This document shows, piece after piece, positions 8,323 through 35,777 of a stretch of 39,881 nt of DNA. The notes below the pieces were generated by a model. It was not told where the DNA came from. It saw only the letters and a program-made list of their open reading frames with translations, and did no database searches. Source of the stretch: Burkholderiales bacterium (GTDB lineage Bacteria > Pseudomonadota > Gammaproteobacteria > Burkholderiales > Burkholderiaceae_C); the NCBI GenBank assembly GCA_017302655.1, contig JAFLDE010000031.1, forward strand, positions 1 to 39,881. Direction: 5' to 3'. Every line of letters starts with the position of its first letter. Within the stretch, counting starts at the first letter, position 1. The position numbers were made by a program, and so were the translations under genes.

Positions 8323-8375
8323 GCCGACCCCTGGCCGGCCGCCGAACAATGCCACTTGTTAATAGGAGGACATCC

Positions 8376-9812: not shown

Positions 9813-9830
9813 GCGAGCAAGGAGAACAAC

Positions 9831-11555: not shown

Positions 11556-11562
11556 GCCCCGA

Positions 11563-13955: not shown

Positions 13956-13989
13956 AAGGACATGCTCCTGAAGCCAGTCTGACCAGGGC

Positions 13990-14003
13990 TTGCGGCATGT
14001 CAA
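13990..14003. promoter_or_regulatory. Weak FNR-like box between fnr and hemN
   Basis: TTGCGGCATGTCAA matches eight of ten defined FNR positions; the right half GTCAA is good and the left half TTGCG is poor. It lies 34 bases upstream of the fnr start and 36 bases upstream of hemN, in the 84-base region between the divergent starts. It could serve both genes, but the match is imperfect. Confidence 0.5.
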
Positions 14004-14039
14004 AGCAGTCGGATCGGCGAACCGGCAGCATCGCTCACC

Positions 14040-18030: not shown

Positions 18031-19398
18031 ATGAATGCTTCGCTGCCGTTGCACCCACGCTCCCATTTCCCGCCCGACTTTGTTTGGGGCGTCGCGACCA
18101 GCGCCTTTCAAATTGAGGGCGCTGCAACATGGCAAGGGAAGGGCGAGTCCATTTGGGACCGCTTCTGCCGCCAGCCCGGGGCGATCGCCGACGGAAGTCA
18201 TGGCGATGTGGCATGCGACCATCTGAATCGCTTGGATTCCGATCTGGACCTGATCGAACGCCTCGGTGTCGATGCCTACCGCTTCTCGATCAGTTGGCCG
18301 CGCGTGCAGCCTGACGGGCGAGGTGCGTTCAACCCTCAGGGCATGGCCTTTTACGAGCGTTTGGTTGACGGCTTGCTTCAACGCGGAATCCGGCCCTACC
18401 TCACGCTGAACCATTGGGACCTTCCGCAGAGCCTTCAGGACAGTGGGGGTTGGGCGCACCGAGACACCTGCTACCGCTTCGTGCAATACGCGCGCCACAT
18501 GGCCCAAGCGCTGGGGGACCGTGTCGCGGCCATCACAACCCACAACGAGCCATGGGTCATGGCCGTGCTCGGCCATGAGTCCGGCGTATTCGCCCCCGGC
18601 GTGCGCAACCGTGGCACGGCCATGCAGGTGGCTCATCACCTGCTTGTCAGCCATGGTCTTGCCCTCCAGGAACTGAGGGCCGATGGCTGCAAGAGCCGCC
18701 TGGGTATTGTGCTCAACCTGTCCCCCATCGTGCCGGCTACGGCGAGTGAAGCGGACGCCGCTGCTGCTCGCCTGGAGGACGGACGCAGCGTGCGCTGGTA
18801 TCTGGACCCTCTGTTGCGTGGTGAGTATCCGGAGGACGTTTGGCACCACCTTGGCACTGATGCGCCGTGCGTCGAACACGGTGACATGGAACTGATCGCC
18901 ACTCCGATGGACTTCCTGGGGGTCAACTACTACACGCGGAGCGTGGTCAGTGCGAATGGAAGTTGGAATGCGAAGGAGCACGGAGGGCCGCTGACCGACA
19001 TGGGCTGGGAGATCGTGCCCCAGGGCCTCACTCAGTTGCTGCGACGGCTTCAGCGTGATTGGTCCCTTCCGCCGCTCTACGTGATGGAGAACGGCGCCGC
19101 ATTTCGCGATTCCCTGCAGGACGGACGCGTGCACGACGGCAATCGCGTCGAGTACCTGTCGAGCCATATCGACGCGGTTGGCCGGGCCATTGCTCAAGGC
19201 GTTCCTGTGGCCGGCTACATGGTCTGGAGCCTGCTGGACAACTTCGAGTGGGCGAGTGGTTATGCCAAGCGCTTCGGTCTCGTGCATGTTGACTACGACA
19301 GCTTGGCGAGGACGCCGAAGGACAGCTTTCACTGGTACCGAGGCTTCCTGGATGGACAAAAGGCGCAGCGCAAACTGCATGTAGGAGCCATGGCGTGA
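18031..19398 (+). CDS. GH1 beta-glucosidase, cytoplasmic
   Basis: The enzyme hydrolyses terminal beta-glucosyl residues from short oligosaccharides. The 455-residue protein is the usual bacterial GH1 length. It shows the N-terminal FVWGVATSAFQIEGA, the acid/base motif THNEPW (Glu173) and the nucleophile motif YVMENGA (Glu353), then WSLLDNFEWASGYAKRFGL, the aglycone/substrate-binding stretch. There is no signal peptide, so it should act in the cytoplasm. It is the first gene of the unit controlled by the operator at 17980, and its TGA overlaps the GH16 GTG by three bases (GTGA). In this context the likely substrates are laminari-oligosaccharides. Confidence 0.95.
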   Translation: MNASLPLHPRSHFPPDFVWGVATSAFQIEGAATWQGKGESIWDRFCRQPGAIADGSHGDVACDHLNRLDSDLDLIERLGVDAYRFSISWPRVQPDGRGAFNPQGMAFYERLVDGLLQRGIRPYLTLNHWDLPQSLQDSGGWAHRDTCYRFVQYARHMAQALGDRVAAITTHNEPWVMAVLGHESGVFAPGVRNRGTAMQVAHHLLVSHGLALQELRADGCKSRLGIVLNLSPIVPATASEADAAAARLEDGRSVRWYLDPLLRGEYPEDVWHHLGTDAPCVEHGDMELIATPMDFLGVNYYTRSVVSANGSWNAKEHGGPLTDMGWEIVPQGLTQLLRRLQRDWSLPPLYVMENGAAFRDSLQDGRVHDGNRVEYLSSHIDAVGRAIAQGVPVAGYMVWSLLDNFEWASGYAKRFGLVHVDYDSLARTPKDSFHWYRGFLDGQKAQRKLHVGAMA

Positions 19399-20309
19399 GC
19401 ACACCGATTCCCGCAGGCTGGAGCCTTGTCTGGCACGACGAGTTCGATGGCGACGCCATCGATCGAAGCAAATGGGACTTCGACCTCGGCAATGGCTTCT
19501 ATGACTACCGCGTGCACCAATGGGTGCCCGGCTGGGGCAACGAGGAACTTCAGTACTACACCGGGGACGCGGAGAACGTGCAGGTGCGTGACAGTTGTGT
19601 GTTCATCCGCGCGGTGAAGGCACCGATGCATGGTTGTGGCTACACCTCTGCACGGCTGAAGACCAAGGCTCGCGATGGACGGGTTCTCTTCGCCAAGCGG
19701 TACGGGCGCATCGCCATTCGAGCCCGCGTGCCGTGGGGCAAGGGGCTGTGGCCTGCGCTGTGGATGCTGCCCGTTGAGGACAAGTATGGGGGCTGGGCGG
19801 CGAGTGGCGAGATCGACCTCATGGAGATCGTGGGTGAGCAACCGCATGAGGTGCTGAACAGCTTGCACTTCGGATCCAGCTTCCCACGCCGTTCTCTCAT
19901 CACCACGACGCACAAACTGGGCGAAAGCAGCGTGGCGGACTGGCACGAATACGCGGTGGAGTGGGAGCCTGGGGAGATCCGCTTCTACGTTGACGAGGTG
20001 CATACCTGCACCTATCGCCACTGGTGGAGCTGCAGCCGGCTGACTGAAGGACAAGGCCACGAGGCCACCTCCGAGGCCGACCTCAACCCGTGGCCCGCCC
20101 CATTCGATCAACCCTTTTATCTCTTGATGAATGTGGCCGTGGGCGGCAACTTCCCCGGCCACCCGAACGAGCACACGGTGTTCCCTGCCGAACTGGTGGT
20201 GGACTGGGTGCGGGTGTACGACAAGGTCGGCGGCTATGGCTCGCCGAAGCCGCGGGGCGAGGGCGTCATGCCCTGGCAGGCCGGCCATGTGGCCGAGCGC
20301 CGCCTGTGA
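19395..20309 (+). CDS. GH16 beta-glucanase (laminarinase-like) without signal peptide
   Basis: GH16 enzymes of this type endo-hydrolyse beta-1,3-glucans. The 304-residue protein is a single GH16 jelly roll: WHDEFDGDAIDRSKWDFDLG at the start, NEELQYYT, GLWPALWMLP, and the catalytic GEIDLMEIVG with Glu139, Asp141 and Glu144. The GTG at 19395 overlaps the GH1 stop, and the catalytic domain begins within five residues of it, so there is no room for a signal peptide. Most laminarinases of this family are secreted; a cytoplasmic location here is an inference from the missing signal. It is the second gene of the unit. Confidence 0.93.
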   Translation: MSTPIPAGWSLVWHDEFDGDAIDRSKWDFDLGNGFYDYRVHQWVPGWGNEELQYYTGDAENVQVRDSCVFIRAVKAPMHGCGYTSARLKTKARDGRVLFAKRYGRIAIRARVPWGKGLWPALWMLPVEDKYGGWAASGEIDLMEIVGEQPHEVLNSLHFGSSFPRRSLITTTHKLGESSVADWHEYAVEWEPGEIRFYVDEVHTCTYRHWWSCSRLTEGQGHEATSEADLNPWPAPFDQPFYLLMNVAVGGNFPGHPNEHTVFPAELVVDWVRVYDKVGGYGSPKPRGEGVMPWQAGHVAERRL

Positions 20310-20334: not shown

Positions 20335-21270
20335 ATGAGCGAACCCAAGCGCAGCCCTTCCCAAGCCTCCGCAGCCCTCACCGGCAGCGGCTTCGCGGCC
20401 ACCGTGCCCACGGTGCAAGTGCCACCGCTCCCACCCGCTAAGCGTGCCCGCCTGGACGCCGCCTTCCGTGCGACGCTGGCGCGCGGCATCCATGGACTTT
20501 GCTTCAGCCCCTACCTGGAGGGGCAGCAACCCGGCGACCAGATTGGCGAGGCGCAGATTCGCGAGCGCCTGGGCGTGGTCCGGCCTCACACCCGCTGGGT
20601 TCGCAGCTTCTCCTGCACCGACGGTCACGAACAGACCCCCCGCCTCGCCAAGGAGCTTGGCCTGCAGACCTTGGTGGGCGCCTGGCTTGGCACCGATGCC
20701 GAGATCAACGAACGGGAGTTGGAAGGCGTGATTGCCGTGGCCCGCGCCGGGCATGCCGACATCGTCGCGGTCGGCAACGAAGTGCTGCTGCGTGAAGACC
20801 TGAGCGAGGACGAACTCATTGCCGCGATCGAGCGCGTCAAGCACGCGCTGCCTGGCGTGCCGGTCGGCTACGTCGATGCTTACTTTCTGTTCGAGAAGCA
20901 CCCTCGCGTCACGGCCGCCTGCGATGTGGTGATGACCAACTGCTACCCCTTCTGGGAGGGCTGTCCGCGCGAGCAAGCCTTGGCCTACATGCAGACCATG
21001 TTCGCCCGCACCCGTGCGGCGGCGGCCGGCAAGCGGGTGCTCATCAGCGAAACCGGCTGGCCCGATCAGGGCAGCGCCTTCCAGGGCGCCGTGCCCTCGA
21101 AGGAGGGGGCGATGCAGCACTTCGTCGACACCGCCGCATGGGCCGAGGCCGAGGGCATCGAGTGGTTCCACTTTGCCGCCTTCGACGAAGCCTGGAAGGT
21201 CGGGGCCGAAGGCGACGTCGGCGCCTTCTGGGGTTTGTGGGACACCCACGGCCAAGCGAAGTTCGTCTGA
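20335..21270 (+). CDS. GH17 family glucanase, signal-less
   Basis: The 311-residue protein has a proline-rich N-terminal stretch of about 45 residues with no signal peptide, then a GH17 barrel starting GIHGLCFSPYLEGQQPGD. The acid/base Glu149 is in VAVGNEVLL and the nucleophile Glu239 in ISETGWPDQG. A C-terminal FAAFDEAWK and FWGLWDTHGQAKF complete the barrel. It is a close paralogue of the GH17 domain fused to the transporter at 26258-28609 (shared WVRSFSCT.GHE, NCYPFWEG, VGAW). GH17 members act on beta-1,3-glucan chains or transfer them; which is unknown here. It starts 25 bases after GH16. Confidence 0.92.
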   Translation: MSEPKRSPSQASAALTGSGFAATVPTVQVPPLPPAKRARLDAAFRATLARGIHGLCFSPYLEGQQPGDQIGEAQIRERLGVVRPHTRWVRSFSCTDGHEQTPRLAKELGLQTLVGAWLGTDAEINERELEGVIAVARAGHADIVAVGNEVLLREDLSEDELIAAIERVKHALPGVPVGYVDAYFLFEKHPRVTAACDVVMTNCYPFWEGCPREQALAYMQTMFARTRAAAAGKRVLISETGWPDQGSAFQGAVPSKEGAMQHFVDTAAWAEAEGIEWFHFAAFDEAWKVGAEGDVGAFWGLWDTHGQAKFV

Positions 21271-21290
21271 ACTCTCCCCGGATTCCACCC

Positions 21291-22241
21291 ATGCATGCAC
21301 CGCTCAGGCTGCCGAAAGGCCAGGCCATCTGCTACTCCGGCTACCGCGAGGGCCAGAGCCCGGATCAGCGGATCTTTCCGTCGCTGGACCAGATCCGCGA
21401 AGACCTCCACCTGCTGGCCCGCCATTGGCAGCTGCTGCGCCTGTACGACTGCAGCCCGCATGCCGAGCGCGTGCTGCAGGTGATCCGTGAAGACCGACTG
21501 CCGCTTCGCGTGATGCTGGGCGCCTACCTGGCGGCCGAGGTGAACAACTTCGGCTGTCCATGGGGAGGCAGTCACGCCGAGGAGCAGCTGGTAGCCAACC
21601 GGCGCGAAAACCAGGCCGAACTCGAGCGGCTCGTGTCCCTGGCCCGCGCGAACGAAGACATCGTGTTCTCGGTGGCCGTGGGCAACGAATGCACGGTGGA
21701 CTGGACCGACCATCTCGTGACCGTGCCCCAGATGGTGCAGTACGTGCGCTGGGTGAAGGCCCGGCTGTCCCAGCCGGTGACCTTCTGCGAGAACTACGTG
21801 CCCTGGCAGCTCAAGCTGGGGGAACTGGTGCCCGAGCTGGACTTCATCTCGCTGCACACCTATCCGGTGTGGGAGTACAAGCACATTCACGAGGCGCTCG
21901 ACTACACCAAGGCCAATGTGGCCAGCGTGGCCTCGCTCTATCCCGACAAGCCGGTCGTCATCACCGAGGCAGGCTGGTGCACCAACAGCAACGGCCGGGG
22001 CATGCATGCCGAACACGCGGTGCAAGAACTGCAGGCCATCTACTACCAGGACCTGATGGACTGGACCCGCGCGGAAGGGCTGCTCTGCTTCGTCTTCGAG
22101 GCGTTTGACGAGCCCTGGAAGGGATCCGCCGATCCGCTGGAGCCGGAGAAGCACTGGGGCCTCTTCACCGTGGATCGCCGGCCGAAGCTCGTCATGGAAG
22201 CCCTGTTTCCTGATCGCGTGTCCCTCCAGGCTGCGGCCTGA
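21291..22241 (+). CDS. GH17 family glucanase, second type, signal-less
   Basis: The 316-residue protein is almost only a GH17 barrel: ICYSGYREGQSPDQ at the start, LLRLYDCSPHAERVLQVI, the acid/base Glu133 in VAVGNECTVDWT, SLHTYPVWEYKHIHEALDYT, and the nucleophile Glu226 in VITEAGWC. It differs from its upstream neighbour and is closer to the GH17 lipoprotein at 29991-31742, sharing LQVI..LR/DL, NQAEL, VGNE..V.W and the YP motif. There is no signal peptide. ATG at 21291 lies 20 bases after the preceding stop, within the same unit. Confidence 0.92.
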   Translation: MHAPLRLPKGQAICYSGYREGQSPDQRIFPSLDQIREDLHLLARHWQLLRLYDCSPHAERVLQVIREDRLPLRVMLGAYLAAEVNNFGCPWGGSHAEEQLVANRRENQAELERLVSLARANEDIVFSVAVGNECTVDWTDHLVTVPQMVQYVRWVKARLSQPVTFCENYVPWQLKLGELVPELDFISLHTYPVWEYKHIHEALDYTKANVASVASLYPDKPVVITEAGWCTNSNGRGMHAEHAVQELQAIYYQDLMDWTRAEGLLCFVFEAFDEPWKGSADPLEPEKHWGLFTVDRRPKLVMEALFPDRVSLQAAA

Positions 22242-22751: not shown

Positions 22752-25700
22752 TCAGCGTGACTTGAAGGCGATGTCGACCTCGACGGCCAACACGCCGCTT
22801 GGGTCGAAGTCGCGCTCGGTGCAGTCAACCCAACCAGCCTCGGTACGAACCCGCACCCGGGTGACGGGTCCGCGCCGGTAGGTGTAAGGCACGTGTGCCC
22901 AGGTGAATCGCAACTCGCCCCCTTCGGGCAATTCGGCTTCGTCCAGCAGCACCGGGTCGATGTGGACCATGCCCTTGCGCTTGCGCAGACCCAGTTCGCC
23001 CCACCGCGTGAGGATCTCCTCCTTGACCTGCCCGGTCATGCCGGGTTGCTGGGCGCCGCCTTCGCCGGGCGTGTGGCTGTAGGGGTCGGCCGGGAAGGCA
23101 CCGTACTCGGCAACCGTCTTGCGGTAGCCCAGGCCGTCGCGCACGCGCCGGTAATGCGCCACCAGAGCTGCGAGCTCGGGAGCACCGCTGTCGAAGGCCT
23201 CGAACACGCGCTCCTGCACCGCCAGCAGCAGCTTGGCCACCATGTGCCAGTAGATGCAACCCAGGCCTTCGTAGGCGAACATGGTGCCCGAGCGCCCGGT
23301 GAACTCGTGATGGCGGAGCACGCGCTCGTAGGCCTCGGCCAAGGGCTTCAGGGCCTCGCCCAGGTCTTGGCCGGCGGCCTCCAGGTCGGCCCGGTTGGAC
23401 AGCTTGGGCGCGAAGCGCACCGTGCCATCGCTCTGACGTTGCAAGAGGTCGCTGCGCCCCTGGGTCAGCAGCTGCTGCACCACTGGCAGCGCCAGCGCCT
23501 GGGCATCGAGCCGGTTGCGTTCGAAGAACCCCGGCAGTTGGCGATCGGGGTAGAGCATGAAGCTGCGCCGCACCGGGCAGTAGATCGGGCTGGCGAACAG
23601 CGAATCGAGCAAGCTCACTGCCTCGGCCAGAGACAGCAGTCCGCAGGACAGCAGAGCCACCTGCCCCTCCAGCATCGGGTACAGGCGGCTCAGTTCGGCT
23701 CCATCCTTGCTGAAAGCGATGAGCGTGTAGCTGTCGTACAGCCCATCGTCGCGACGGCAACGGCGCAGGCTGGCGTCGACCAGCGGCAGCAGCGAGCGCG
23801 CCAGAGTCACGAGCAGGCCCGGTGCCGCCTGCGACACCCGCCGCGCGGCCGCGCCGCGGTAGGCGCTGGCGCGCCAGCGGTCGAGGATGTCGCCAGCCGC
23901 ATCGAGAAATTGGCGCCGCGAGCAGGCGTTGTCGCACGCCGCGATGGCGGTGCCAGCCAACAATTCGCCGAACTGCTGCAGGGCGCTCAGGGTCGCCTCG
24001 CTGACCGCGAAGCTTTCGCGCGCGGCCGGCAAGGCCAGCAGGAAGCCGAGGAGCCGTCGCAGGTGCGCCAGCGTGACCGCCGACAGGCCGTTGCCGACCA
24101 GCGCGTTGTTGGCGTCGTTCCATTCGGGCCTCTGGGTGTGCAACCACAGCCCACCCCCAGGCAGCAGGGAGCCGGCCTTGGCCAGCAGGATCACCGCCAG
24201 TTTCTCGCCCAGGGTGGCCAGCAGCGGCTCGCCGGCGTCGTCGCAGACCAGCAGGCCGTCCGCTCCGATCTGCGCCCGGCGTTCATGGGCGCGCTCGTGC
24301 GCGCGCTCGTCGAAATCGATGGTGTGCTTGGGGCTGGCCATCTGCTCGGCGTGGGGCTTCAGGCGGTAGGGGATGTCGGCAAAGCTGAACAGCGAGCGGT
24401 TCCACAGATCGGCCAGCAGCGTGGGGTCGTGGGCCTCGGCCGCCTCCATCAGGCGCAGCAAATAGATGATCTGGTGATCGCCCCAGTAGCCGATGTGACT
24501 CCAGGGGTCGTGGGCGTCGACGACCTCCCAGTCGATGCCCTCGCGGCCGATGCGGTAAGGGTTGTAGCCGTCGGCCGACATCGCGCCGAGGAACGCGGTG
24601 ATCATCGAGCCCAGGTAGGCGGGCTCGCTGGCCGCCAGCGCTTCCCAGTTTTGGAAGATGTCGCGCCAGTTGCCCTGGTAGTTCACGACGCGCTGACCCT
24701 GTGCATCGCGCACCCGGATCGAGAAACGGTTCCAAGGCCGGCTCGGATCGCCATGGCGGCGGCTGAAGGTCAGTGGCAGGTACTCCATGACCAGCCGCTC
24801 CAACTGCCGCTGGCCGCTCGCGCGCACCACCTCGAGCACCAAGCTGCGTTCGACCTGCGAGGGAAGCGGTGCGAGGAGGGCAGCGAGGTCGTCACCCAGC
24901 GCATGGTGGCGCTGGCGCGCAAACGCCAGCAGGTCCTCGCGCTGCAGGCAGGTGCCGTTGACGAACGCGCCGCCACGCATGATGTTGAACAGCACATTGG
25001 CACGGTGGTGCGCGGCAGCCATGGGGTCGCCCGACTGCTGGAACCCGTCGGCCGCGGCGAGCAACTCGTTCACCCCCGCGGTGTTGCGAGCGCGCGCTGT
25101 CAGGAGCTCGGCCACACTGCCGCCGCCTTGTGCCAAGTGCTGGGCCAGCTCGAAGGCCTCGGTCTGGGAGCGCGGGCCATCGACCACCAGATGCCAGGCG
25201 CAGCCCTCACGGTCGAGCTCGGTGTCGAACTGAACCAGGAAGGCGCCGCGGCGGCCGCGCGTCAGGGTCTCGGACTCGACATGGCCGCTGCGGCAGAAAG
25301 CCTCGACCTGGTGGGCCGACAGCAGGGTGCGCGCGGTGGCGGGCAGGCCTGCGTGCCAGGCCACCAGGGCTTCGAAGGACTCCTTGGGTTCCGCCCGATC
25401 CCAAATCTGCGCATACAGCGTGAAGAGCCCCAGCCGTCCGCCGGCTGCGGTCTCGTTCCACTTGTAGGCGTCGGTGAGGTTGCTCATGGTCGCCGCCGTT
25501 CGCGCGCCGATGCCCGGCGGCAGCAGGTTCAGCAAGCCGTCCAGCACCGATACACGCAAGGGAATGGCTTTGCCGGCGTCAGCCTGCCGGCTCAGCCGTG
25601 CGCTGCGCACCAGTCCGAAGGGTTCGGCGGCGAACCACTCGTACTCGAAACAAAGATCACCCCCAGCATGCAACTCGCGAAAGCGGATGCGCGTGCCCGA

Positions 25701-26108
25701 CAAGTTCTTCCACAACGAACGAAGGTGGCGCGTACCGGCTGCGGACCGAGCGAAGGGCTCCCAAAGCTCGGGGCTGCCAGCTCCTTCCACGCGAATCCAG
25801 GTGCGCGGCCCGGTGTGCTCCCAGCGGTTGTGAATCTTGTCGACGGTCTCGTAAGGCAGGAAGGCGCCGTCTTCGTCGCGGCGGCCAGCGCTCAGCGAGC
25901 CCGCCGAAGAGATGAAAGCCCACAGGTCGCTGTCGCCAGCCAGGCTCATGAAGAAAGGGGGCAGGTGATCGACGCCATCGATGCGGTACCAGCTCTCACC
26001 GTCATCCAGCACGAACCTGCCGAGCACCTCGGCTTGGTCAGGGTTGGATGTCGCAGAGCGAGGGTTGAACGGACTCGGGGGCGTCGGGGCTCGGTGGGCG
26101 CGGCTCAT
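22752..26108 (-). CDS. GH94-clan beta-glucan phosphorylase-like protein (GH149/GH161 type)
   Basis: The product has about 1,118 residues and no signal peptide. It opens with ESWYRIDGVDHLPPFFMSLA and SAGSLSAGRRDEDGAFLPYE, has a long N-terminal beta region, a helical linker with FNIMRGGAF, then an (alpha/alpha)6-type core with NYQGNWRDIFQNWEAL and DPWSHIGYWGDHQIIYLLRL. The candidate catalytic Asp665 lies in RPEWNDANNALVGNGLS. Size and motifs fit the large relatives of GH94 known to phosphorolyse beta-1,3-oligoglucans to glucose-1-phosphate (GH149, GH161). I cannot tell which of the two from memory. The start is unclear: ATG at 26108 is used, 26120 is as good, and neither has a clear ribosome-binding site. 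It is the last gene of the minus-strand unit, 149 bases after the transporter fusion. Confidence 0.8.
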   Translation of the reverse strand: MSRAHRAPTPPSPFNPRSATSNPDQAEVLGRFVLDDGESWYRIDGVDHLPPFFMSLAGDSDLWAFISSAGSLSAGRRDEDGAFLPYETVDKIHNRWEHTGPRTWIRVEGAGSPELWEPFARSAAGTRHLRSLWKNLSGTRIRFRELHAGGDLCFEYEWFAAEPFGLVRSARLSRQADAGKAIPLRVSVLDGLLNLLPPGIGARTAATMSNLTDAYKWNETAAGGRLGLFTLYAQIWDRAEPKESFEALVAWHAGLPATARTLLSAHQVEAFCRSGHVESETLTRGRRGAFLVQFDTELDREGCAWHLVVDGPRSQTEAFELAQHLAQGGGSVAELLTARARNTAGVNELLAAADGFQQSGDPMAAAHHRANVLFNIMRGGAFVNGTCLQREDLLAFARQRHHALGDDLAALLAPLPSQVERSLVLEVVRASGQRQLERLVMEYLPLTFSRRHGDPSRPWNRFSIRVRDAQGQRVVNYQGNWRDIFQNWEALAASEPAYLGSMITAFLGAMSADGYNPYRIGREGIDWEVVDAHDPWSHIGYWGDHQIIYLLRLMEAAEAHDPTLLADLWNRSLFSFADIPYRLKPHAEQMASPKHTIDFDERAHERAHERRAQIGADGLLVCDDAGEPLLATLGEKLAVILLAKAGSLLPGGGLWLHTQRPEWNDANNALVGNGLSAVTLAHLRRLLGFLLALPAARESFAVSEATLSALQQFGELLAGTAIAACDNACSRRQFLDAAGDILDRWRASAYRGAAARRVSQAAPGLLVTLARSLLPLVDASLRRCRRDDGLYDSYTLIAFSKDGAELSRLYPMLEGQVALLSCGLLSLAEAVSLLDSLFASPIYCPVRRSFMLYPDRQLPGFFERNRLDAQALALPVVQQLLTQGRSDLLQRQSDGTVRFAPKLSNRADLEAAGQDLGEALKPLAEAYERVLRHHEFTGRSGTMFAYEGLGCIYWHMVAKLLLAVQERVFEAFDSGAPELAALVAHYRRVRDGLGYRKTVAEYGAFPADPYSHTPGEGGAQQPGMTGQVKEEILTRWGELGLRKRKGMVHIDPVLLDEAELPEGGELRFTWAHVPYTYRRGPVTRVRVRTEAGWVDCTERDFDPSGVLAVEVDIAFKSR

Positions 26109-26257
26109 CACGGCTTGCATGGATCGATCGGCATGGCGCTTGGCCAGGCGGGGGAGGTCGAGGCGTCGAGGCGGGTGGGCTGGAGTCGGCCGAAACAGGG
26201 AGACCGGCTTGGGTGGTGCGTCCAGAGCGGCGGACTCATGGGCTTGGTTCGGCCTGG

Positions 26258-28609
26258 CTAGGGCAGGTACTTGGCGCGTTCGCCAGCGTCCCAAAGGCCC
26301 CATTGCGTCCCCACCTCGCCCTCCTGATGGCGCTTCCAGGGCTCATCAAAGGACGAGAAATAAAAGAGCTTCACGCCCTCGCGGCGTCCCCAATGCTGGA
26401 CGTCAATGAAGTAGCGCATGGCGTTGTCGGCAGAGGGCACCGCCTCGCCCACGGGCTGGCCGCCGCTGGGCCAACCGGTCTCGGTGACGACGACCCGCTG
26501 GCCCTCCCGGGCCACGGCCTTCACCAGCGCATGCATGCGTTGGAGATAGGCGGCGGCCTGGTCGATGGCGATGCCTTCCCAGAAGGGGTAGCAGTTGGGC
26601 AGCAGCACATCGCAGGCCGCGACCAGCTGGGGGCGCTCCAGGAACTGGTAGTAGGCATCGACGCAGCCGACCTCGACGTGCTCGGGAACCGCGGCCTTCA
26701 CACGGGCGATCAGGGCGAGCAACTCGGCTTCGGGCAGGTCGCCGCGCAGCAGCACCTCGTTGCCGACAACGGCGATGTCGACGGCGCCGCCGCGGGCGAG
26801 TTGGATGAGGCTTTCGATTTCGCGCTCGTTGCGCGCGCGGTCGCTGCTCACCCAGGCACCGACCATGGTCTTCAAGCCCTTCTCGCGCGCCAGGCGCGGC
26901 GTCCACTCATGGCCCTCGGTGCAGGAGAAGGAGCGCACCCAGCGCACGTGCAGGGCGATGAGGTCCAGGCGTCGGTGGATCTGCGTCTCGCTGACCGCAT
27001 CGCCAGCCTTCTGCCCTTGCGTGTAGGCGCTGAAGCACAGGCCGTAGAGGCCGGCCTTCAAGGTCTCCGCGTGCAGTGTTCGCAGTTCGGCGCCATGCGT
27101 GTCCATCAAGGGCGTGCGTTCGACACTGGGCAGCAGCAGGGCATGCTCCGACAGCCAGGGCCGTGCCGTGGCCGAGCCCGGTGCTGCCACGGAGGCTGTT
27201 TGCTTGCGGCGCTCCAACTCCTTGTGCACCTCCACGGCGCGGGCCTCGTCGAGGTCGTAGCTGCGCATGATCCACATCGCCAGCAGGGTGCCGAAGATGG
27301 GGACACCGGAGTAGAAAAGGCGCAGGCCGTCCACCGCGCCCGCCGGTTGCGTGGCGGCGCCCGGGGTGAAGGCCACCAGGCTCATGATGGCGCCGCTGAG
27401 CAGGCCGGCGATGGCGAAGCCGAACTTCACCATCCACCAGTAGATGGCGCCGAAGATGCCCTCGCGGCGCTTGCCGGTGGCGAGCTCGTCGAGGTCGCAG
27501 ACGTCGGCGGTCATCGACATCATCAGCGTGAACAAACCGCCGATGCCGAACGAGAAGAAGGGCAGGGCGAACAGGAACATCCAGGGCTTGCCCGGCACCA
27601 TCAGCAGCCACAGCAGGATGTAGCCGAGGATGGAAATGCCCTGCGACAGCATGAAGGCGTTCTTCTTGCCCATGTGACGCGACATCCAGGCCACGGTGGG
27701 GATGACCGCAAAGGTGGTGATGAGCGCACCGACGCTGCCGAACAGGGTGGGCCAGATCCAGGCAGCGCCGGTGTCTCCGTTGAACAGGTGGTAGACGACG
27801 ATGAAGAAGGAGAACGCCGCCACCGTGTTGAAGGCGTTGAAGATGAGGAAGGTGGCGAAGCACAGCTTGCGGAAGGGTCGCGAGCTGAAGGCGTCCTTGA
27901 AGCCGGCAAGGATCTCGCGCATGCCGCCGCCGAAGTTCGCCCAGGTCAGCGGCACCAGTTGTTGATCGTTCAGGCTGGAGCGACGGGGCAAGAACAGCGC
28001 CGGCACCATGGCCAGGAGCATGCAGATCACGCCCACCCAGACCGACAGGGTGCGGGTGGCGGTGTCGGCGTTCTCGAACCAGCTCTTGTCGTACATCACC
28101 ACCCAGAACCAGGGCGCGATCACCCACGCCCACTGGCCGATCCACTGCGCCACGGCCATGATGCTGGTGCGCTCGTGGAAGTCGTCGCTCATCTCGTAGC
28201 CCATGGCCACGTAGGGAATGCTGAAGAGCGTGAGGCCTGTGTAGAACACCAGGCTCCAGAGCAGGAAGTAGACGAAGTTGTAGGGGATGCCATCGGCCCG
28301 ATCCAACTGCCACATGGCGACGAAGGACAGCCCCATCACCACGGCCCCGATGAACACATAGTGCGCGCGCCGGCCCCAGCGCGAGCGGGTGTTGTCGGAG
28401 ATGAAACCCATGATCGGGTCGGTCACCGAATCGAACACGCGCGGCAGGAAGAAAAGGATGCCCCACATCCAGGCCGGAAAGCCAAGGTCCTGCACCAGCA
28501 CCACCATGAAGATGCCGAGGGCGGCGGGGAACATCTGGTTGGCGAGCATGCCCAGGCCGAAGGCGACCTTGTGGCGGAAAGGGACCTTGTGGGCTGGTGC
28601 TGTGGACAT
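26258..28609 (-). CDS. GPH-type sugar transporter fused in frame to a GH17 glucanase domain
   Basis: One 783-residue frame encodes two whole proteins. Residues about 1-470 are a glycoside-pentoside-hexuronide:cation symporter of the MelB/MFS type with some 12 helices, including the signature DPIMGFISDNTRSRWGRR and ending in the typical YDLDEARAVEVHKELERRKQ. A Pro/Ala-rich linker (about 470-500) leads to a GH17 domain starting GLYGLCFSAYTQGQKAGD, with acid/base Glu618 (VVGNEVLLRG) and nucleophile Glu710 (TETGWPSGG). Met502 could start the GH17 part, but no Shine-Dalgarno-like sequence precedes it. GPH carriers have cytoplasmic C-termini, so the glucanase should face the cytoplasm. It follows GH30 by 20 bases. 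Confidence 0.9.
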   Translation of the reverse strand: MSTAPAHKVPFRHKVAFGLGMLANQMFPAALGIFMVVLVQDLGFPAWMWGILFFLPRVFDSVTDPIMGFISDNTRSRWGRRAHYVFIGAVVMGLSFVAMWQLDRADGIPYNFVYFLLWSLVFYTGLTLFSIPYVAMGYEMSDDFHERTSIMAVAQWIGQWAWVIAPWFWVVMYDKSWFENADTATRTLSVWVGVICMLLAMVPALFLPRRSSLNDQQLVPLTWANFGGGMREILAGFKDAFSSRPFRKLCFATFLIFNAFNTVAAFSFFIVVYHLFNGDTGAAWIWPTLFGSVGALITTFAVIPTVAWMSRHMGKKNAFMLSQGISILGYILLWLLMVPGKPWMFLFALPFFSFGIGGLFTLMMSMTADVCDLDELATGKRREGIFGAIYWWMVKFGFAIAGLLSGAIMSLVAFTPGAATQPAGAVDGLRLFYSGVPIFGTLLAMWIMRSYDLDEARAVEVHKELERRKQTASVAAPGSATARPWLSEHALLLPSVERTPLMDTHGAELRTLHAETLKAGLYGLCFSAYTQGQKAGDAVSETQIHRRLDLIALHVRWVRSFSCTEGHEWTPRLAREKGLKTMVGAWVSSDRARNEREIESLIQLARGGAVDIAVVGNEVLLRGDLPEAELLALIARVKAAVPEHVEVGCVDAYYQFLERPQLVAACDVLLPNCYPFWEGIAIDQAAAYLQRMHALVKAVAREGQRVVVTETGWPSGGQPVGEAVPSADNAMRYFIDVQHWGRREGVKLFYFSSFDEPWKRHQEGEVGTQWGLWDAGERAKYLP

Positions 28610-28629: not shown

Positions 28630-29991
28630 TCAGCGCCAGTAGGTGGCGATGGAGTGAGCGGGGAGGTCGGCGGCGTGCGGCGCACCGTCGATGGCGAGCG
28701 AGAACGCGATGTCGTGGTCACTGCGGTTCAGCACCACCACGGCCACGCGCCCGTCAGGGTTCACGAAGGCGGTGCACTCCAGCGCCTCGCGCGTGGCGGC
28801 GGCCAGCACGCGCTGGGCGCCGGGCTGGATGAAGCGCGCGAAGTGGCCGAGCGCGGCGAAGGAACTTTGCGCATGCAGGCCGTCCTCGTCGGGCACGGCC
28901 AGGAAGGGCGCGCTGCAGAAATTGCCGACATGGTTCGGACCGCCCTGTTCGTCAAGCAGCAGGTTCCAGTCGATCCAGCCCACCGTCCAGCGGTTCAGGT
29001 CGTTGAGGATCGAGCGGGCATAGCGCTCGGCCAGTTCCCAGCGGCCCCAGTGCGGCCCGCCTTCCTGGCAGCCTTCCGTGAAGAGCAGTTGCTTGTCGGG
29101 CCAGGCGTCGTGCACCAGCTGCACATGCTCGAAGTGGTCCTCGAGGTACCAGTGGAAGCCCGTTCCCCAAACGTACTTCGCAGCCTCCGGGTCGCCGTAC
29201 ATCACGCTGGCGCGCTCGACCATGGCGTCGCGGTTGTGATCCCAGACAACGATCCGAACGCGCGCCAGGCCGGCGGCATGCAAGGCCGGCCCCAGGTGGT
29301 CGCGCACGAAGTTGCGCTCTTCCTCGGCGGAGTAGAGGCAGGAGTCCCAGCGCTGCCGGGCCTCGGGCTCGTTCTGCACCGACACGCCCCAGACCGGCAC
29401 ACCCTCCGCCTCATAGGCCTGGATGAACTTCACGTAGCACTGCGCCCAGGCGGCCGCGCACTCGGGCTTCAAGCGACCGCCGTCGTTCATGCGGCCGCTG
29501 TCCTTCATCCAGGCGGGCGGGCTCCAAGGGGAGACGAGCAGCTTGAGCGCTCGCCCGGCAACCGTTTGCGCCGCCTTGATCATCGGAAGCAAGGCCTCGC
29601 GGTCGCGGTCGATGCTGAAGCTGGCGAGATCGATGTCCCCTGGTTCGTCCGCGTGAGCGTAGTTCCCCAGGGCGAAGTCGCAGCTGTTCATATGCACGCG
29701 GCACATCAGGTAGCCGTGGCCCTCGACCGGGTCGAAGTACTCGCGCAGCAGGCGCTGCTGCTGGGCATCGGACAGCTTCAACCAAGTGGTCGCTGCGGCC
29801 TCGGTGAAGGCGCCCCCGAAGCCTTCCAGGCGCTGGAACCTGCGTGTCGTGTCCACCCACAGGCGGATGGGTGCGACGCCGTGGGCGCCCCTCTCTGGGT
29901 TGGGAGGGAGGGGCGATTGCGGCGTCAGTCGCAGTTCCTGTCCGTGCCGGGCGTCCCTTGCGCTGAGCACCCAGTTCAAGACCTCGCTCAT
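28630..29991 (-). CDS. GH30 family beta-glucosidase/beta-1,6-glucanase, signal-less
   Basis: The 453-residue protein has an N-terminal strand region, then FQRLEGFGGAFTEAAA, LLVSPWSPPAWMKDSG, the acid/base Glu208 in VSVQNEPE and the nucleophile Glu306 in LLFTEGCQ, with a C-terminal beta domain ending SIATYWR. This is the GH30_1/GH30_3 pattern; in marine laminarin degraders GH30 enzymes remove beta-1,6 side branches. No signal peptide is visible. The ATG shares one base with the stop of the upstream GH17 lipoprotein gene (TGATG), so a signal cannot be hidden upstream. Subfamily and linkage preference are inferred. Confidence 0.92.
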   Translation of the reverse strand: MSEVLNWVLSARDARHGQELRLTPQSPLPPNPERGAHGVAPIRLWVDTTRRFQRLEGFGGAFTEAAATTWLKLSDAQQQRLLREYFDPVEGHGYLMCRVHMNSCDFALGNYAHADEPGDIDLASFSIDRDREALLPMIKAAQTVAGRALKLLVSPWSPPAWMKDSGRMNDGGRLKPECAAAWAQCYVKFIQAYEAEGVPVWGVSVQNEPEARQRWDSCLYSAEEERNFVRDHLGPALHAAGLARVRIVVWDHNRDAMVERASVMYGDPEAAKYVWGTGFHWYLEDHFEHVQLVHDAWPDKQLLFTEGCQEGGPHWGRWELAERYARSILNDLNRWTVGWIDWNLLLDEQGGPNHVGNFCSAPFLAVPDEDGLHAQSSFAALGHFARFIQPGAQRVLAAATREALECTAFVNPDGRVAVVVLNRSDHDIAFSLAIDGAPHAADLPAHSIATYWR

Positions 29992-31742
29992 CAGCGCGAC
30001 CAATGCAGCCCGTCGATGCGAATCGCGGGCAGACCCGTTTGGTTCAGGGGCTTGCCGGTGAAGCTGAACCGATCCGCCACGATGAAGCGAAAGTTCACGT
30101 AGCGGAGGTCCAGCTTCGGATTGGCTGCGGTGAAGGCCGAGATGGGAATGGACACCTCGCACCAGCCGTTGTTGTTGCAGTAGCCGTAGTCTCCGGGGCC
30201 GATCTGCAGGAAGGCCTCCTGGATGTCGCGGTCCTCCGTGTCGGTGCTGATGCCAACCTCGATCTTGCCCGGGTAGCCATCGCTGCGCACTTGGAAATTC
30301 AGCCGGCCGCCGCTGAAGTTGGACAGGTTGTCGAGCACGCCGCTGCCCGAGTAATGGAACAGGCCCCACCCGAAGTCCACCGGGTTCGGGCTGATCTCGA
30401 AGTGCACGCCGCCGTCGGGGGAGTTGACGCCCAGGGTCTCGCGGTATCCGGTCAGCGCGAAGGGATCCCAGCGCAGGCCGGTGGCGCGCTGCTCGCCGGA
30501 CACGGCCGTGTTGGCGAACAGGGTGTAGCGCGCTGCGGTGATGGCCGGATTCAAGGTCGGTGGAACCCATTTCACAGCGTCGGCCAAGGTGTAGTTGCCG
30601 GCTTCGCAGGCCCAGGTGACGCCGCAGGTGCCCAGGGCCTGAACGACGTAGCGGGCTTCCCGCCTTGCGTTGAACAAGCCCCAGCCATCGTCGCCTTGCT
30701 TCCAAGGTTCGTCGAAAGCCTGGAAGTAGAAGATCGCCTTCGGGCCTTGCACGTCCTTGCGGCCATCCTGCACCCAGGTTTGCAGACCCTCGAAGAACAT
30801 GCGCTGGTTCACGGGGTGGGCGCGGAAGGCCAGGGTGGGGCCGCCGGCCGTGTCCACGGCCGCCCAGCCGGTCTCGCCGATGACCATGGGCAGATGTCCG
30901 AGGTTCAGCTTCACCAAGCCGGCGCGCGCGTCTTCGAACTGCTTTTTCGCCTCGGTCAGGGTGGCGTCGATCATGGCCTTGGCGCGGCCGGATTCGGGAG
31001 CGTTCTTCTGCCGCCAGTCGTACTTGGTGCTGTTGTAGAAGGTGTCGAGGAAGGGGTAGACATGCACGGCGGCGTAGTCCACCGTCGCGGCCACTTCCTT
31101 GTTGACGTTGGCCCACATCAACCAGTTGTCGTTGGTGGTGACCGGCTGCGAGATGGCGGCGCGTACCTTGCGCAGGTAGCCGGCCATCACGAGCGGATCG
31201 ACCTTGTGCGTGGACCACTCCACCATGGTTTCGTTGCCCACGCTCACCGCGAGCACGATGTCCTTGTAGGCATTGGCCAGGCGGATGCAGGCGTCCAGTT
31301 CCGCTTGGTTGTCGGCTTCGGCCGCTGCGTTCGGCACCGGATTGGGATAGGCGCCCAATTGCACCTTGAGATCGAGCCTGTTGTCCTTGATCACCTGCAG
31401 CACGGTCTCGGCGAAGGCGCGGCTCGAGAACAGGCGGATGGTGCCGATGCCCGTGGCCTGGATGAGGCGCAGGTCCTCCAGCACGTTGGCCGGGGTGATG
31501 ACTTCGCGGCTCAGTTCGGACTCGTTGCGTGAGGTGCGGTAGGGCGAGTAGTTGACGGAGGCGCGGGTGATGAAGGCCTGGGGCAATTCGCGGCGGTCGC
31601 TTTGCGACACCGCGCTGGGCGTGTAGCCGCCGGCACCGCCACCGCCACATCCGGCCAGAGGGGTGGCCAGGATGGCCGCGATGGCCAGGCAGAGCGGACG
31701 CTTGATCGCGTACAGGGATGCAAAGGGCGAGGTGGAGTTCAT
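29991..31742 (-). CDS. GH17 lipoprotein with a C-terminal binding-type domain
   Basis: The 583-residue protein has a lipoprotein signal ending LATPLAGC with Cys32, followed by a Gly-rich tether. The GH17 barrel spans about 55-375: ASVNYSPYRTSR, IRLFSSRAFAETVLQVI, acid/base Glu171 in VSVGNETMVEW and nucleophile Glu290 in VIGETGWAAVD, closing with FYFQAFDEPWK and GWGLFN. Residues about 380-583 form a separate beta-rich domain with FEISPNPVDFGWGLFHYSGS and LDLRYVNFRFIV, resembling a carbohydrate-binding module; the family is not recognised. The residue after the lipobox Cys is Gly, so outer-membrane sorting is likely. It is the second gene after the porin, 15 bases downstream. Confidence 0.92.
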   Translation of the reverse strand: MNSTSPFASLYAIKRPLCLAIAAILATPLAGCGGGGAGGYTPSAVSQSDRRELPQAFITRASVNYSPYRTSRNESELSREVITPANVLEDLRLIQATGIGTIRLFSSRAFAETVLQVIKDNRLDLKVQLGAYPNPVPNAAAEADNQAELDACIRLANAYKDIVLAVSVGNETMVEWSTHKVDPLVMAGYLRKVRAAISQPVTTNDNWLMWANVNKEVAATVDYAAVHVYPFLDTFYNSTKYDWRQKNAPESGRAKAMIDATLTEAKKQFEDARAGLVKLNLGHLPMVIGETGWAAVDTAGGPTLAFRAHPVNQRMFFEGLQTWVQDGRKDVQGPKAIFYFQAFDEPWKQGDDGWGLFNARREARYVVQALGTCGVTWACEAGNYTLADAVKWVPPTLNPAITAARYTLFANTAVSGEQRATGLRWDPFALTGYRETLGVNSPDGGVHFEISPNPVDFGWGLFHYSGSGVLDNLSNFSGGRLNFQVRSDGYPGKIEVGISTDTEDRDIQEAFLQIGPGDYGYCNNNGWCEVSIPISAFTAANPKLDLRYVNFRFIVADRFSFTGKPLNQTGLPAIRIDGLHWSR

Positions 31743-31757: not shown

Positions 31758-33101
31758 TCAGAACTTGTAGTTGGCTTCGAACGACACCCAGTGGCCTTTC
31801 CTGGCCACGCGGGAGTCGATGTTCGAGAAGGCGTCATGCGCCGGCATGCTCAGCGGCGCGAGACCTTTGCGGCCGTAGTGGACGGCATTGAGCGCTGCAG
31901 AGGCCGTCAGGCCATTGCCGAAGTCATAGCGTGCGCCCAAGCTTCCGAACAGGGCCGTGTTGCTCTGTCCCCGTTCGCGCGGGTTGGCGGTGCTTGCTTC
32001 GCCCAGGTAGGTCACGCCCGCATAGGCCTGCCACTCGCGGTTGATGTACTTGCGCAGGCCCAGCATGAGGTCCGTGCTTCGGGCCGAGTAGCCGGGGTTG
32101 GCCACGCCCTTGGCGTCGACGGCGCCCCAGTTGACGTTGAAGGGGTTGTTCCACTCGGCTTGTGCGCCTTGGGTGAGGGCTACGGCGTAGGCACCGCTCC
32201 AGCGGTTCACGCGCAGGCCGGCCGACACCTCGTACTCGCTGCCGATCTGGTACTTCGTCAGCAGCATGAAGATGCCTTGGCTGTTGCCATTCAGCAGCGC
32301 GTCGTCGCGGTCGGGGAAGTAGGTCAGGCCTTTGAAGGCCGTCTTCGCAAAGGCGGCCGGTGCGCTGTTCTTGCCCGACTGCGCGACTGCCTCGATGACC
32401 CAGGGACCCTGGCCCCACAGCGCCCAGAGCTCAAAGAACTCGGGCTTGTTGCGCTTCCAGCGGGTGTCTCCTTGCGCATAGGTGCCCTCCAGCACCAGGT
32501 TGCCATCCATCACGTAGAGCTCACGGGACGTGTAGCGCAGCGCGTGGGTGAGGATCCCGTAGGCCGCGCCGGAGTCGCTGAAGACGGTCTGGCCGACGTC
32601 CGAGGCATAGGGCGAATCCGGTCGGTTCCAACCGCGCGAGACGAAATTGCCGATCACCAAGGAGCCGTAGTACTCATGCTTCAGCGTTGCGCTGCGTTCA
32701 TAGACGACGCCTGGCAGGTCCGGGTCGCCATCGCGCCAGCGCTGAGCGAACGCCGCGCTGAACTTGAAGCCTTGTGGCAAGTCGAAGTTGGCAGCCAAGG
32801 TGGGCTGCACCTGGATGCCACGCTGGGTCTTGCTACCAAATTCCTTGCCGAACACGATGTCATCGGCCCAGATGAACTGACGCGCGGCGTCTGGATCGCG
32901 TTGGCAGCGCTCGCAGTGGTTGCTGACGCGTGATGCATAGGCCTTGACGAACCCCGTCAGGCTGAAGGGGCCGTACTCAAACGCCTGGGTTTCCGACGCG
33001 AGGCCAAGCAGCGCCGTGGCCATCGCGATGGGCATGAGTCGACCCCTGGGACCTGAGAAGAAGTCAGCGGCGCGAGCGCGTGGAAGAACTACTTTCGACA
33101 T
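31758..33101 (-). CDS. Outer-membrane porin-like beta-barrel protein
   Basis: The 447-residue protein has a signal peptide whose core is MPIAMATALLGLASETQAFE, placed behind a 22-residue basic extension; a start at the second Met is possible. The mature part is a run of alternating strands (YAGVTYLG, FGSLGARYDF, WVSFEANYKF) ending in Phe, the outer-membrane sorting residue. It contains NHCERCQRD near the mature N-terminus. I do not recognise a named family; layout resembles carbohydrate-selective or DUF-type porins. As first gene of the minus-strand unit it is controlled by the promoter and operator at 33129-33174. It is the only outer-membrane channel in the locus, so it is the likely entry route for glucan oligosaccharides. 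Confidence 0.82.
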   Translation of the reverse strand: MSKVVLPRARAADFFSGPRGRLMPIAMATALLGLASETQAFEYGPFSLTGFVKAYASRVSNHCERCQRDPDAARQFIWADDIVFGKEFGSKTQRGIQVQPTLAANFDLPQGFKFSAAFAQRWRDGDPDLPGVVYERSATLKHEYYGSLVIGNFVSRGWNRPDSPYASDVGQTVFSDSGAAYGILTHALRYTSRELYVMDGNLVLEGTYAQGDTRWKRNKPEFFELWALWGQGPWVIEAVAQSGKNSAPAAFAKTAFKGLTYFPDRDDALLNGNSQGIFMLLTKYQIGSEYEVSAGLRVNRWSGAYAVALTQGAQAEWNNPFNVNWGAVDAKGVANPGYSARSTDLMLGLRKYINREWQAYAGVTYLGEASTANPRERGQSNTALFGSLGARYDFGNGLTASAALNAVHYGRKGLAPLSMPAHDAFSNIDSRVARKGHWVSFEANYKF

Positions 33102-33337: not shown

Positions 33338-35650
33338 ATGACGGCGACGAGCACCCGCGGTTGGAGGACATGGAGGCCTTGGTTGGCCGCTGCCATCCTG
33401 GTCATGCCTGTCTTGGCGAGCGCCCAATCGGTGAAGCTGGGCGCCGGCGGCTATCACCTGACTCCCAAGGGTGCAGACAAGCCGGTTCCCCAGGCGCCAT
33501 TCCGTACCGAGGCGATGCTCAAGCGCGCGGCGCCCACCAGCCAGTGGTACTCCACGCTGGCCTTCAACGCCAAGCCTGAAGCGATCTTCGTGCAGCCGAT
33601 CACTGTGAAGGCGGTGCCTTCCGGGCTGGAGTTCGCGCTTCCTTCCAAAGAGGCGGTGGAGACGCACCGCCAGGATGTCGAGATCCGCTACCCCCACCGC
33701 GATCCGATCCTCATCTCGCCGATGGCCTTCCAGCCGGGCAAGGCCAAGTTGGCGAATGTCGACGACTGGTCGATCGACATTTCGATGGCCAACGGCGCCG
33801 ACGACCTGCTGGTCACGGTGGCGCGCGGCAACCCGTATGCCTCGTTGCGCGTGACGCGCGGCGACCTTCGCCTTCGCTTGCCAGCGGCAGCTGAGCGACT
33901 GCACGCCGGCGCCGACCCGCGTGCGCTGACCCTGAAGATGGGCGGCAAGACCTACGCGGCCTTCGGGCCGACAGGGGTCCAGTGGGAGGCGGTCTCGCCC
34001 TCCGAATGGATCGCGCGATTGCCCGAAGGCAAGGGCTATCTGGCGATGGCCGCGATGCCCGACGACAAGGCTGAGACCCTGGCCCTTTTCGCCCGACACG
34101 CCTACGCCTTCATCAAGCAAACCCGTGTGGCCTGGCGGTACGACGAGGCGGCCAGCCGGGTCGAAACCAGCTTCACGGCCAGCACGCAGGTGATGGAGGG
34201 GCCGGACCATGGGCCGCTTCTCGGTCTCTATCCCCATCACTGGTTCCGCAATCCCTCGGTGGAAGGGGCGTTGGGGCCGAGTTTTGACACGGTGCGGGGC
34301 AAGCTCCGCTTGCTCGCCGCGCCCTCCTTCAAGACCAACTATCCGTTCAAGGGCTTCGTGCCCCAGTGGCCGGCCGTGGTCGGGTCGCCGCGGGCTGCGG
34401 AGCTGAAGGACGTGCTGGACAAGGACCTTGCGACGGCAGGGCGCGATTTGCACCGCCAGGGCCGCAGCGCCTACTGGGCGGGCAAGGGTTTGCTGCGCAC
34501 CATGAAGCTGGCCGAAGTGGCGGAGCAGCAAGGCGATGCCGGCAGCCGCGACCGACTGCATGACATGGTCAAGAAGCGCGCCGAGGAATGGCTGGGAGGC
34601 AACAGCAGCCGCGGCTATGTGCAGCGCGAGGAGTCGATGGGCGTGGTGTCCATCTATCCCGACGAGTTCTACGCGGTGGCCGAGATCAACGATCACCACT
34701 TCTGGTACGGCTACTTCATTCGCACAGCGGCCGAGATTGCCTTGCGAGATCCCAGCTGGATCGCCACGGGGAACTGGGGCGGGATGATCGAGCTCTTGAT
34801 CGCCGACATCGCCACCACCGAGCGTGGCCGGGCCGATGCCCCGTTCCTGCGCAATTGGGATGCCTACGAGGGGCACACCTGGGCCAATGGCATCGGCTTG
34901 GGCGAATTCGGCAACAACAACGAGTCGTCCTCGGAGTCCATCAACGCCTGGGTGGGTCTCATCCTCTGGGGAGAAGTGACCGGCAACAAGGCCCTGCGTG
35001 ACCTGGGCGCTTACCTCTACGCCAACGAAATCCAGGCCATCAACCACTACTGGTTCAACATCCACGGGCAGGTGTTCGCGCCTGAGTACCGGAACGCGGA
35101 GGTCAGCCTGGTGTTTGGCGGCATGTACCGCCATGACACCTGGTGGATCGACGATCCGCGGCAGATCAAGGGCATCAACCTGCTGCCGGTGACCACGGCA
35201 CACACCTACCTGGCCACGGATCCGGCCTTCATCCAGCGAAGCCTGGCCACCTTGCCGGCCGAGACCGCGCTGTGGAATCGCATCGCCAAGAAGCCCAGCC
35301 CCCCGCCGCCGAAGGACATCTGGCAGGACATCTTTGCCAAGTACCTGGCCTTGGCCGATCCCGCGGCTGCGCTGAAAACCTGGGAACGCTGGGGTTCGGT
35401 GGAACTCGGGTCCTCACGCAGCTACACCCTGAACTTCATGCTGCAACTGGAGGCCATGGGGACGCCGGACTTCAGCATCAGCGCCGACACCCCCTTGCAT
35501 GCCGTCTTCAAACGGGGTGATGGTTCGCGCACCTACCTCGCTTTCAATGCCCGCCGCGCGCCGCTGGACGTGAGGTTCAGCGACGGCATCCGGATGACTG
35601 TGCCTCCCGGACAACTGGCCCGGATGGTCAGCACGCCGAGCGGGCGTTGA
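33338..35650 (+). CDS. GH81 endo-beta-1,3-glucanase, secreted
   Basis: GH81 enzymes cut long beta-1,3-glucan chains internally. The 770-residue protein has a signal peptide (WRPWLAAAILVMPVLASAQS, cleavage after the final Ala-rich part) and a full GH81 body: TSQWYSTLAFN near the N-terminus, AYWAGKGLLRTMKLAE, Asp452 in INDHHFWYGYFIR, the Glu pair Glu529/Glu533 in GNNNESSSESINAW, and YHRDT-like GGMYRHDTWW. The length is normal. GGGGA precedes the ATG. The gene is divergent from the porin unit and first in its own unit, followed by the repeat lipoprotein. It is likely the first enzyme to meet the polymer. Confidence 0.95.
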   Translation: MTATSTRGWRTWRPWLAAAILVMPVLASAQSVKLGAGGYHLTPKGADKPVPQAPFRTEAMLKRAAPTSQWYSTLAFNAKPEAIFVQPITVKAVPSGLEFALPSKEAVETHRQDVEIRYPHRDPILISPMAFQPGKAKLANVDDWSIDISMANGADDLLVTVARGNPYASLRVTRGDLRLRLPAAAERLHAGADPRALTLKMGGKTYAAFGPTGVQWEAVSPSEWIARLPEGKGYLAMAAMPDDKAETLALFARHAYAFIKQTRVAWRYDEAASRVETSFTASTQVMEGPDHGPLLGLYPHHWFRNPSVEGALGPSFDTVRGKLRLLAAPSFKTNYPFKGFVPQWPAVVGSPRAAELKDVLDKDLATAGRDLHRQGRSAYWAGKGLLRTMKLAEVAEQQGDAGSRDRLHDMVKKRAEEWLGGNSSRGYVQREESMGVVSIYPDEFYAVAEINDHHFWYGYFIRTAAEIALRDPSWIATGNWGGMIELLIADIATTERGRADAPFLRNWDAYEGHTWANGIGLGEFGNNNESSSESINAWVGLILWGEVTGNKALRDLGAYLYANEIQAINHYWFNIHGQVFAPEYRNAEVSLVFGGMYRHDTWWIDDPRQIKGINLLPVTTAHTYLATDPAFIQRSLATLPAETALWNRIAKKPSPPPPKDIWQDIFAKYLALADPAAALKTWERWGSVELGSSRSYTLNFMLQLEAMGTPDFSISADTPLHAVFKRGDGSRTYLAFNARRAPLDVRFSDGIRMTVPPGQLARMVSTPSGR

Positions 35651-35714: not shown

Positions 35715-35777
35715 ACGCACGTTCTTGACCCTTCGACCTTGCCCTTCCGGTTGACCCGACTTTCAGGACACCCCGCC

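Follow-up and report, generated by a model that had tools for sequence, protein, structure and literature searches.

A Burkholderiales counterpart of the Formosa carrier-GH17 fusion FbGH17b in a beta-1,3-glucan locus

The joining of a sugar carrier to a family GH17 enzyme is known from the laminarin locus of Formosa, where Unfried et al. 2018 (PMC6246565) described FbGH17b as an MFS-GH17 fusion, a protein taken up again in PMC11005184 and PMC13188888. FbGH17b is FORMB_24740 (AOR29491.1) of Formosa sp. Hel1_33_131 and begins with a 12-helix MFS carrier; the Formosa tags 24720, 24730 and 24740 correspond to FbGH17A, FbGH30 and FbGH17B (PMC6246565). Only debranched laminarin was hydrolysed by FbGH17B, which also converted oligosaccharides to glucose (PMC6246565), and in the parts of this account accessible to us no test of an intact carrier-GH17 fusion was found. 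MlGH17B of Muricauda lutaonensis, a stand-alone transglycosylase 53% identical to FbGH17B (PMC11005184), is predicted to be cytoplasmic (PMC13188888). The roles of the catalytic glutamate pair of GH17 have been described, together with a Trp, a Glu and a Tyr (Tyr136 of MlGH17B) tied to transglycosylation (PMC11005184). Among solved structures, the nearest to the two halves considered here are the fungal GH17 transferase RmBgt17A (4wtp, 4wtr), a single-domain enzyme, and MelB (4m64, 7l16), which carries no attached enzyme.

We analysed a stretch of 39,881 nucleotides from a Burkholderiales bacterium (contig JAFLDE010000031.1), hereafter the window. It encodes, within a beta-1,3-glucan locus, an MFS carrier and a GH17 domain in one chain, which is the Burkholderiales counterpart of FbGH17b. 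The initial annotation had supposed that this architecture was undescribed, which is wrong given the report of Unfried et al. 2018 (PMC6246565); what is new is that the carrier-GH17 fusion extends to Burkholderiales, where our literature search, in sources partly accessible, found no description of one. The features of the locus are the following.

18031-19398 (+): GH1 gene
19395-20309 (+): GH16 gene
20335-21270 (+): S-type (stand-alone) GH17 gene, from an old lineage that is sister to the fused domain
21291-22241 (+): third GH17 gene, approximate start (Pfam GH17 30 bits)
22752-26303 (-), listed frame: GH149 beta-1,3-glucan phosphorylase (NF058639 1177 bits, cut-off 1150), with in-frame ATGs at 26120 and 26108 as alternative starts
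26258-28609 (-): fusion gene, with a GPH/MFS_2 carrier (residues 1-470), a tether (about 471-505) and a GH17 domain (506-783)
26261-27094 (-): GH17 half, with catalytic E618 and E710 and aglycone-site W677-E678
27200-28609 (-): carrier half, 12 predicted transmembrane helices followed by a C-terminal helix (455-473, its end lying outside these coordinates), from MFS_2, model helices and charge bias
28630-29991 (-): GH30 gene just upstream of the fusion (Pfam GH30 256 bits), start chosen by inspection
29991-31742 (-): endo-type GH17 with a lipoprotein-like start (LAGC, by eye), counterpart of Formosa FbGH17A
31758-33101 (-): possible outer-membrane beta-barrel protein (OMP_b-brl 21.7 bits, below the cut-off of 28.7)
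33338-35650 (+): GH81 gene with a signal-like start (by eye)

On the minus strand the order is thus possible outer-membrane barrel, endo-GH17, GH30, fusion and GH149, and on the plus strand GH1, GH16, stand-alone GH17, third GH17 and GH81. The likeness to Formosa concerns both the protein (a 12-helix MFS carrier with a C-terminal GH17) and its surroundings, since the order endo-GH17, GH30, fusion is the same and GH149 occurs among the Formosa laminarin loci as it does near the window fusion (PMC6246565). The endo-type GH17 falls under the Pfam GH17 cut-off, and its sole PDB match is 6fcg (FbGH17A), with an E of 4.9e-24. The two systems differ in that one is found in Formosa and the other in Burkholderiales, where neither SusC nor SusD was named by Pfam among 28 scanned window frames. 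The stand-alone GH17 reported earlier at 20335-21270 is present and is 51% identical to the fused domain; the window holds four GH17 proteins, however, and not two as the pair of fusion and paralogue implied, and these four differ clearly in kind and are packed into about 11 kb (20335-22241, 26258-28609 and 29991-31742). Judged by eye, endo-GH17 and GH81 start with export signals, while none is apparent in GH1, GH16, GH30 and the stand-alone GH17, in line with the earlier proposal that enzymes of the locus could take over imported oligosaccharides. Of the best 80 of 387 loci, 55 extend beyond the fusion by more than 9 kb at each end; in these, GH30 relatives occur nearby in 20/23 Pseudomonadota and 23/32 Bacteroidota loci, and GH149 relatives within the flanks in 5/23 and 31/32, respectively. 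Two further observations concern the surroundings. The frame 35739-38453 (+), 904 residues long, starts like a lipoprotein, has weak macroglobulin and CBM35 matches only and possibly encodes a glucan-binding lipoprotein, and the glucan genes are preceded by a cbb3-oxidase-type gene group (5961-16135, +) containing P-type ATPase, COX1, FixO, FixP, FixG-like, HemN-like and DsbD-like genes.

The product of 26258-28609 is a genuine single-chain fusion: the translation runs uninterrupted through 783 residues with zero stops and contains both folds, as had been read from the frame. The junction is not an artefact of assembly: in independent genomes, used here in place of read coverage, carrier and GH17 share one open reading frame in 80/80 loci kept as the best 80 of 387 candidates (one of them, L063, is cut by its contig end); the loci were selected by match to the whole query, so that this sample favours fusions. 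Met502, which the initial annotation considered as a possible start of a separate soluble protein, is not credible in that role. In alignment A2 (69 rows, the window plus 68 of the best 80 of 387 loci) the column aligned with it holds Met in 1/69 rows, and Met occurs anywhere in columns 475-510 in 16/69; inspection by eye found no Shine-Dalgarno-like sequence before Met502, while AGAAGAA immediately precedes the fusion-gene start at 28609. A scan for promoters and terminators gave sites no more numerous than in shuffles. An AlphaFold model built on the 69 rows of A2 had a mean pLDDT of 84.9 and a pTM of 0.59, so that the relative placement of carrier and GH17 domains is not predicted. Residues 470-482 have a pLDDT under 50 and the linker sequence is variable among the relatives in A2, which fits a flexible tether; neither this part of the model nor the linker variation gives any sign of a sealed exit channel between carrier and enzyme.

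Of 299 genomes in the window's family, 6, the window genome included, have a full-length, stop-free fusion of the main type, as do 12 of 395 Bacteroidota (E to 1e-150); a draw from one Bacteroidota family contained it in at least 13 of 249 (rows of at least 59% identity). Among 398 Pseudomonadota it was present in the window's own genome only, six others giving unfused matches (E to 1e-60). We also counted the two types of GH17 in 159 sequences, taking distinct domains of at least 250 bits and at least 200 model positions and using type models trained on the groups of a quick GH17 tree, so that the split into types is not independent of that tree. All 93 fused-type domains (93/93) lie in an open reading frame with a carrier, compared with 3/112 of the stand-alone type. 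These three, L014, L015 and L016, are L147, L148 and L149, respectively, with shorter flanks, and for the first two the type models are near ties (317 vs 316 and 323 vs 314 bits).

For the history of the carrier half, a careful tree was built from 56 of 65 carriers (left out were 5 outgroup rows, L134 and L147-L149). The main carrier lineage has 43 members, 30 fused and 13 unfused, with support 100/100, and fused and unfused carriers are interleaved in it: a tree in which all fused members form one clade is rejected (p-AU 1.6e-6), and the fused/unfused label needs 10 changes on the tree, 7 of them forced by starred branches. Since the fused-type GH17 is of one origin (see below), we read this pattern as repeated loss of the enzyme half, although the counts alone are also compatible with regain by exchange. 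In the window's family, L151-L153 have unfused carriers 83-87% identical to that of the window, which end shortly past the C-terminal helix, and no fused GH17. With 13 of the 43 same-lineage carriers of this chosen sample lacking the GH17 half, the tether is not essential. The 13 Burkholderiales carrier rows (100/99) lie inside a 16-row set (100/97) whose Bacteroidota members are L068, L069 and L071; this nesting points to transfer, and Burkholderiales probably gained the fusion from Bacteroidota.

Carrier and GH17 have also been joined outside the main lineage. L135 (812-3388, +) has a fused-type GH17 on a second carrier lineage, whose carrier contains an insert, and placing this carrier in the main lineage is rejected (p-AU 0.0004). 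L149 (4783-7266, -) combines a stand-alone-type GH17 with a different GPH carrier, whose identity is 25% with the window's and 72% with those of L147/L148, through a Pro/Ser/Thr-rich linker of about 110 residues; the test rejects its GH17 as a member of the main fused type (p-AU 9e-5). A stand-alone-type GH17 on a divergent carrier makes L149 a separate fusion, in one Burkholderiales genome. The GH17 domains of L147/L148 (G158/G240) may be grouped with the main fused type (p-AU 0.46) or with L149 (p-AU 0.15). The quick carrier tree attaches the carriers of L147-L149, 72-87% identical to one another, by a branch of length 10, so that their place in it means little beyond this mutual identity. 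Some candidates were discarded: the 754-residue frame of L150 has a Pfam GH17 only, its first part reading like a shadow frame, and was retained in the trees as a GH17 row, and open frames of 1025-1045 residues (e.g. G354, G436) proved to be separate carrier and GH17 frames (L137, L138).

These data bear on whether the fusion is neutral, that is, whether a stop was lost between adjoining genes and the tether brings no benefit. Simple fusion would suit the layout of L131 and L138, where a GH17 gene comes immediately after an unfused carrier, and both the interleaving of the carriers and the variable linker agree with it. However, the fusion has been kept in two phyla, the fused-type GH17 was never seen unattached, and the joining occurs again on a second carrier lineage in L135 and independently with another carrier in L149, so that we regard neutrality as unlikely. 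That GH17 tethering to the cytoplasmic end of GPH carriers has been selected more than once (in the main fusion crossing from Bacteroidota to Burkholderiales, in L135 and in L149) is a suggestion that we put forward tentatively, leaning slightly against it.

Concerning the enzyme half, Pfam Glyco_hydro_17 recognizes the C-terminal part only (residues 689-781, 42.7 bits, cut-off 28.2), while the remainder of the barrel is visible from about residue 506 in the AlphaFold model, and Foldseek matches this half to the solved enzyme 4wtr (target-normalised TM 0.88). E618 and E710 occur without exception across A2 (69 rows) and both align with Glu of 4wtp, so that the complete GH17 domain with this pair, as first described, holds. 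RmBgt17A shares the barrel, the catalytic pair and the aglycone-site Trp and Glu, but is 27% identical to the fused half in the Foldseek alignment. By analogy with FbGH17B, the GH17 half would be active on beta-1,3-glucans. It might instead act mainly as a transglycosylase rebuilding imported oligosaccharides, like MlGH17B and RmBgt17A; the best solved sequence match is indeed the transferase 4wtp, and of the transfer-linked residues Trp and Glu are kept (W677, E678), the WE motif being present in 93/93 fused-type domains. Yet Tyr is replaced by Leu621, a position that is Leu in 66/93 and Tyr in 7/93 fused-type domains. FbGH17B, which by its published description differs from the window fusion in having Met there, released glucose (PMC11005184, PMC6246565). 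This objection is weak, since the window's stand-alone copy also has Leu. We consider a mainly synthetic role rather improbable. The Tyr136 position was also tried as a divider of fused and stand-alone types, and fails in Burkholderiales. MlGH17B itself, with its printed motif SWKVGSEGDVG (PMC11005184), fits the stand-alone type (WK[VI]GxEGDVG occurs in 83/112 S-type vs 4/93 fused-type domains) and, judged by this motif, is probably the counterpart of 20335-21270.

The carrier half matches Pfam MFS_2 (PF13347) at residues 17-455 with 217 bits (cut-off 27). The NCBIfam GPH model TIGR00792 matches over its whole length with 179 bits, under its cut-off of 231, and we therefore speak of an MFS_2 carrier of the GPH kind and not of a certified GPH member. 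Foldseek groups this half with MFSD2A and MelB. Common to MelB and the carrier are the fold and an aligned pair of cation-site Asp, whereas Asp19 and Asp124 of MelB, which we take to be its sugar site, are Gln25 and Ser130 in the fusion carrier, so that the sugar is not readable from MelB. D60 and D64, invariant in 69 rows, align with MelB Asp55 and Asp59, which structure titles present as a cation-site residue (D55) and a mutated residue (D59); cation-coupled sugar transport would be expected of this carrier. Its helices in the AlphaFold model fit 12 membrane spans, and with spans taken from the model Lys and Arg number 27 in even loops and ends vs 4 in odd loops, a positive-inside bias with the same direction in 69/69 rows. 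Both carrier ends are hence predicted to be cytoplasmic, as had been assumed for the C-terminus, and a cytoplasmic GH17 enzyme is well supported by this predicted topology. A periplasmic GH17 half, feeding short products into the carrier, would be allowed by the published FbGH17b account, which in its accessible parts leaves the side of the domain unstated (PMC6246565). It is very unlikely, however, given the predicted topology, the stand-alone sister without an apparent signal peptide (the window copy begins MSEPKRSPSQ) and the predicted cytoplasmic MlGH17B (PMC13188888).

Fused and stand-alone GH17 represent two distinct ancient lineages, both common to Burkholderiales and Bacteroidota. In the quick tree (96 chosen domains, a far outgroup included) fused domains stand apart from stand-alone ones and fall into two groups whose fork is unresolved. 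The careful tree used 82 of these 96, leaving out 4 outgroup rows and 10 others including the long-branched fusion L134; in it, 31 fused domains plus L135, from both phyla, lie on one side of a branch (100/99), and those of Burkholderiales form one group (100/99.5). A separate clade of Bacteroidota fused domains, the alternative to nesting of the Burkholderiales group among them, falls just short of rejection (p-AU 0.051). Common descent with the fusions of Flavobacteriia is supported at 100/99 for the GH17 halves and 100/100 for the carriers, in trees whose rows comprise other Flavobacteriaceae fusions, FbGH17b being absent. The initial annotation took the fusion to have probably arisen locally, from a duplicate of the neighbouring stand-alone GH17 that became joined to the carrier. 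Although the two copies do share a locus and 51% identity, such an origin has practically no chance against this branch, against the cost of forcing the two window copies together (159 log units, p-AU 0.000188) or all Burkholderiales copies together (p-AU 3e-53), and against the sharing of both lineages with Bacteroidota. An ancient duplication preceding the fusion is likely.

Our explanation is therefore one of import and cutting at the inner membrane, by a counterpart of FbGH17b whose tethered GH17 is cytoplasmic, and we hold it with good confidence. Exported GH81 and endo-GH17 would cut beta-1,3-glucan to oligosaccharides, which the MelB-like GPH carrier would import with a cation; a flexible linker would tie the GH17 beta-1,3-glucanase to the cytoplasmic C-terminus of this carrier, and the tethered enzyme, with GH30, GH16, GH1 and GH149, presumably cytoplasmic as judged by eye, would complete the breakdown to glucose and glucose-1-phosphate. 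That beta-1,3-glucan oligosaccharides are the substrate is suggested by FbGH17b and by the locus, and the tether may bring a kinetic gain, as in the earlier proposal that cleavage would pull uptake forward. If tethering has indeed been selected more than once, these carriers would be modular import-and-cut units clearing the product at their exit. Whether uptake becomes faster when transport and metabolism are joined could be studied naturally in a symporter that carries a hydrolase of its own at the exit, with natural controls in near relatives that have or lack the enzyme half and in the independent fusion on another carrier.
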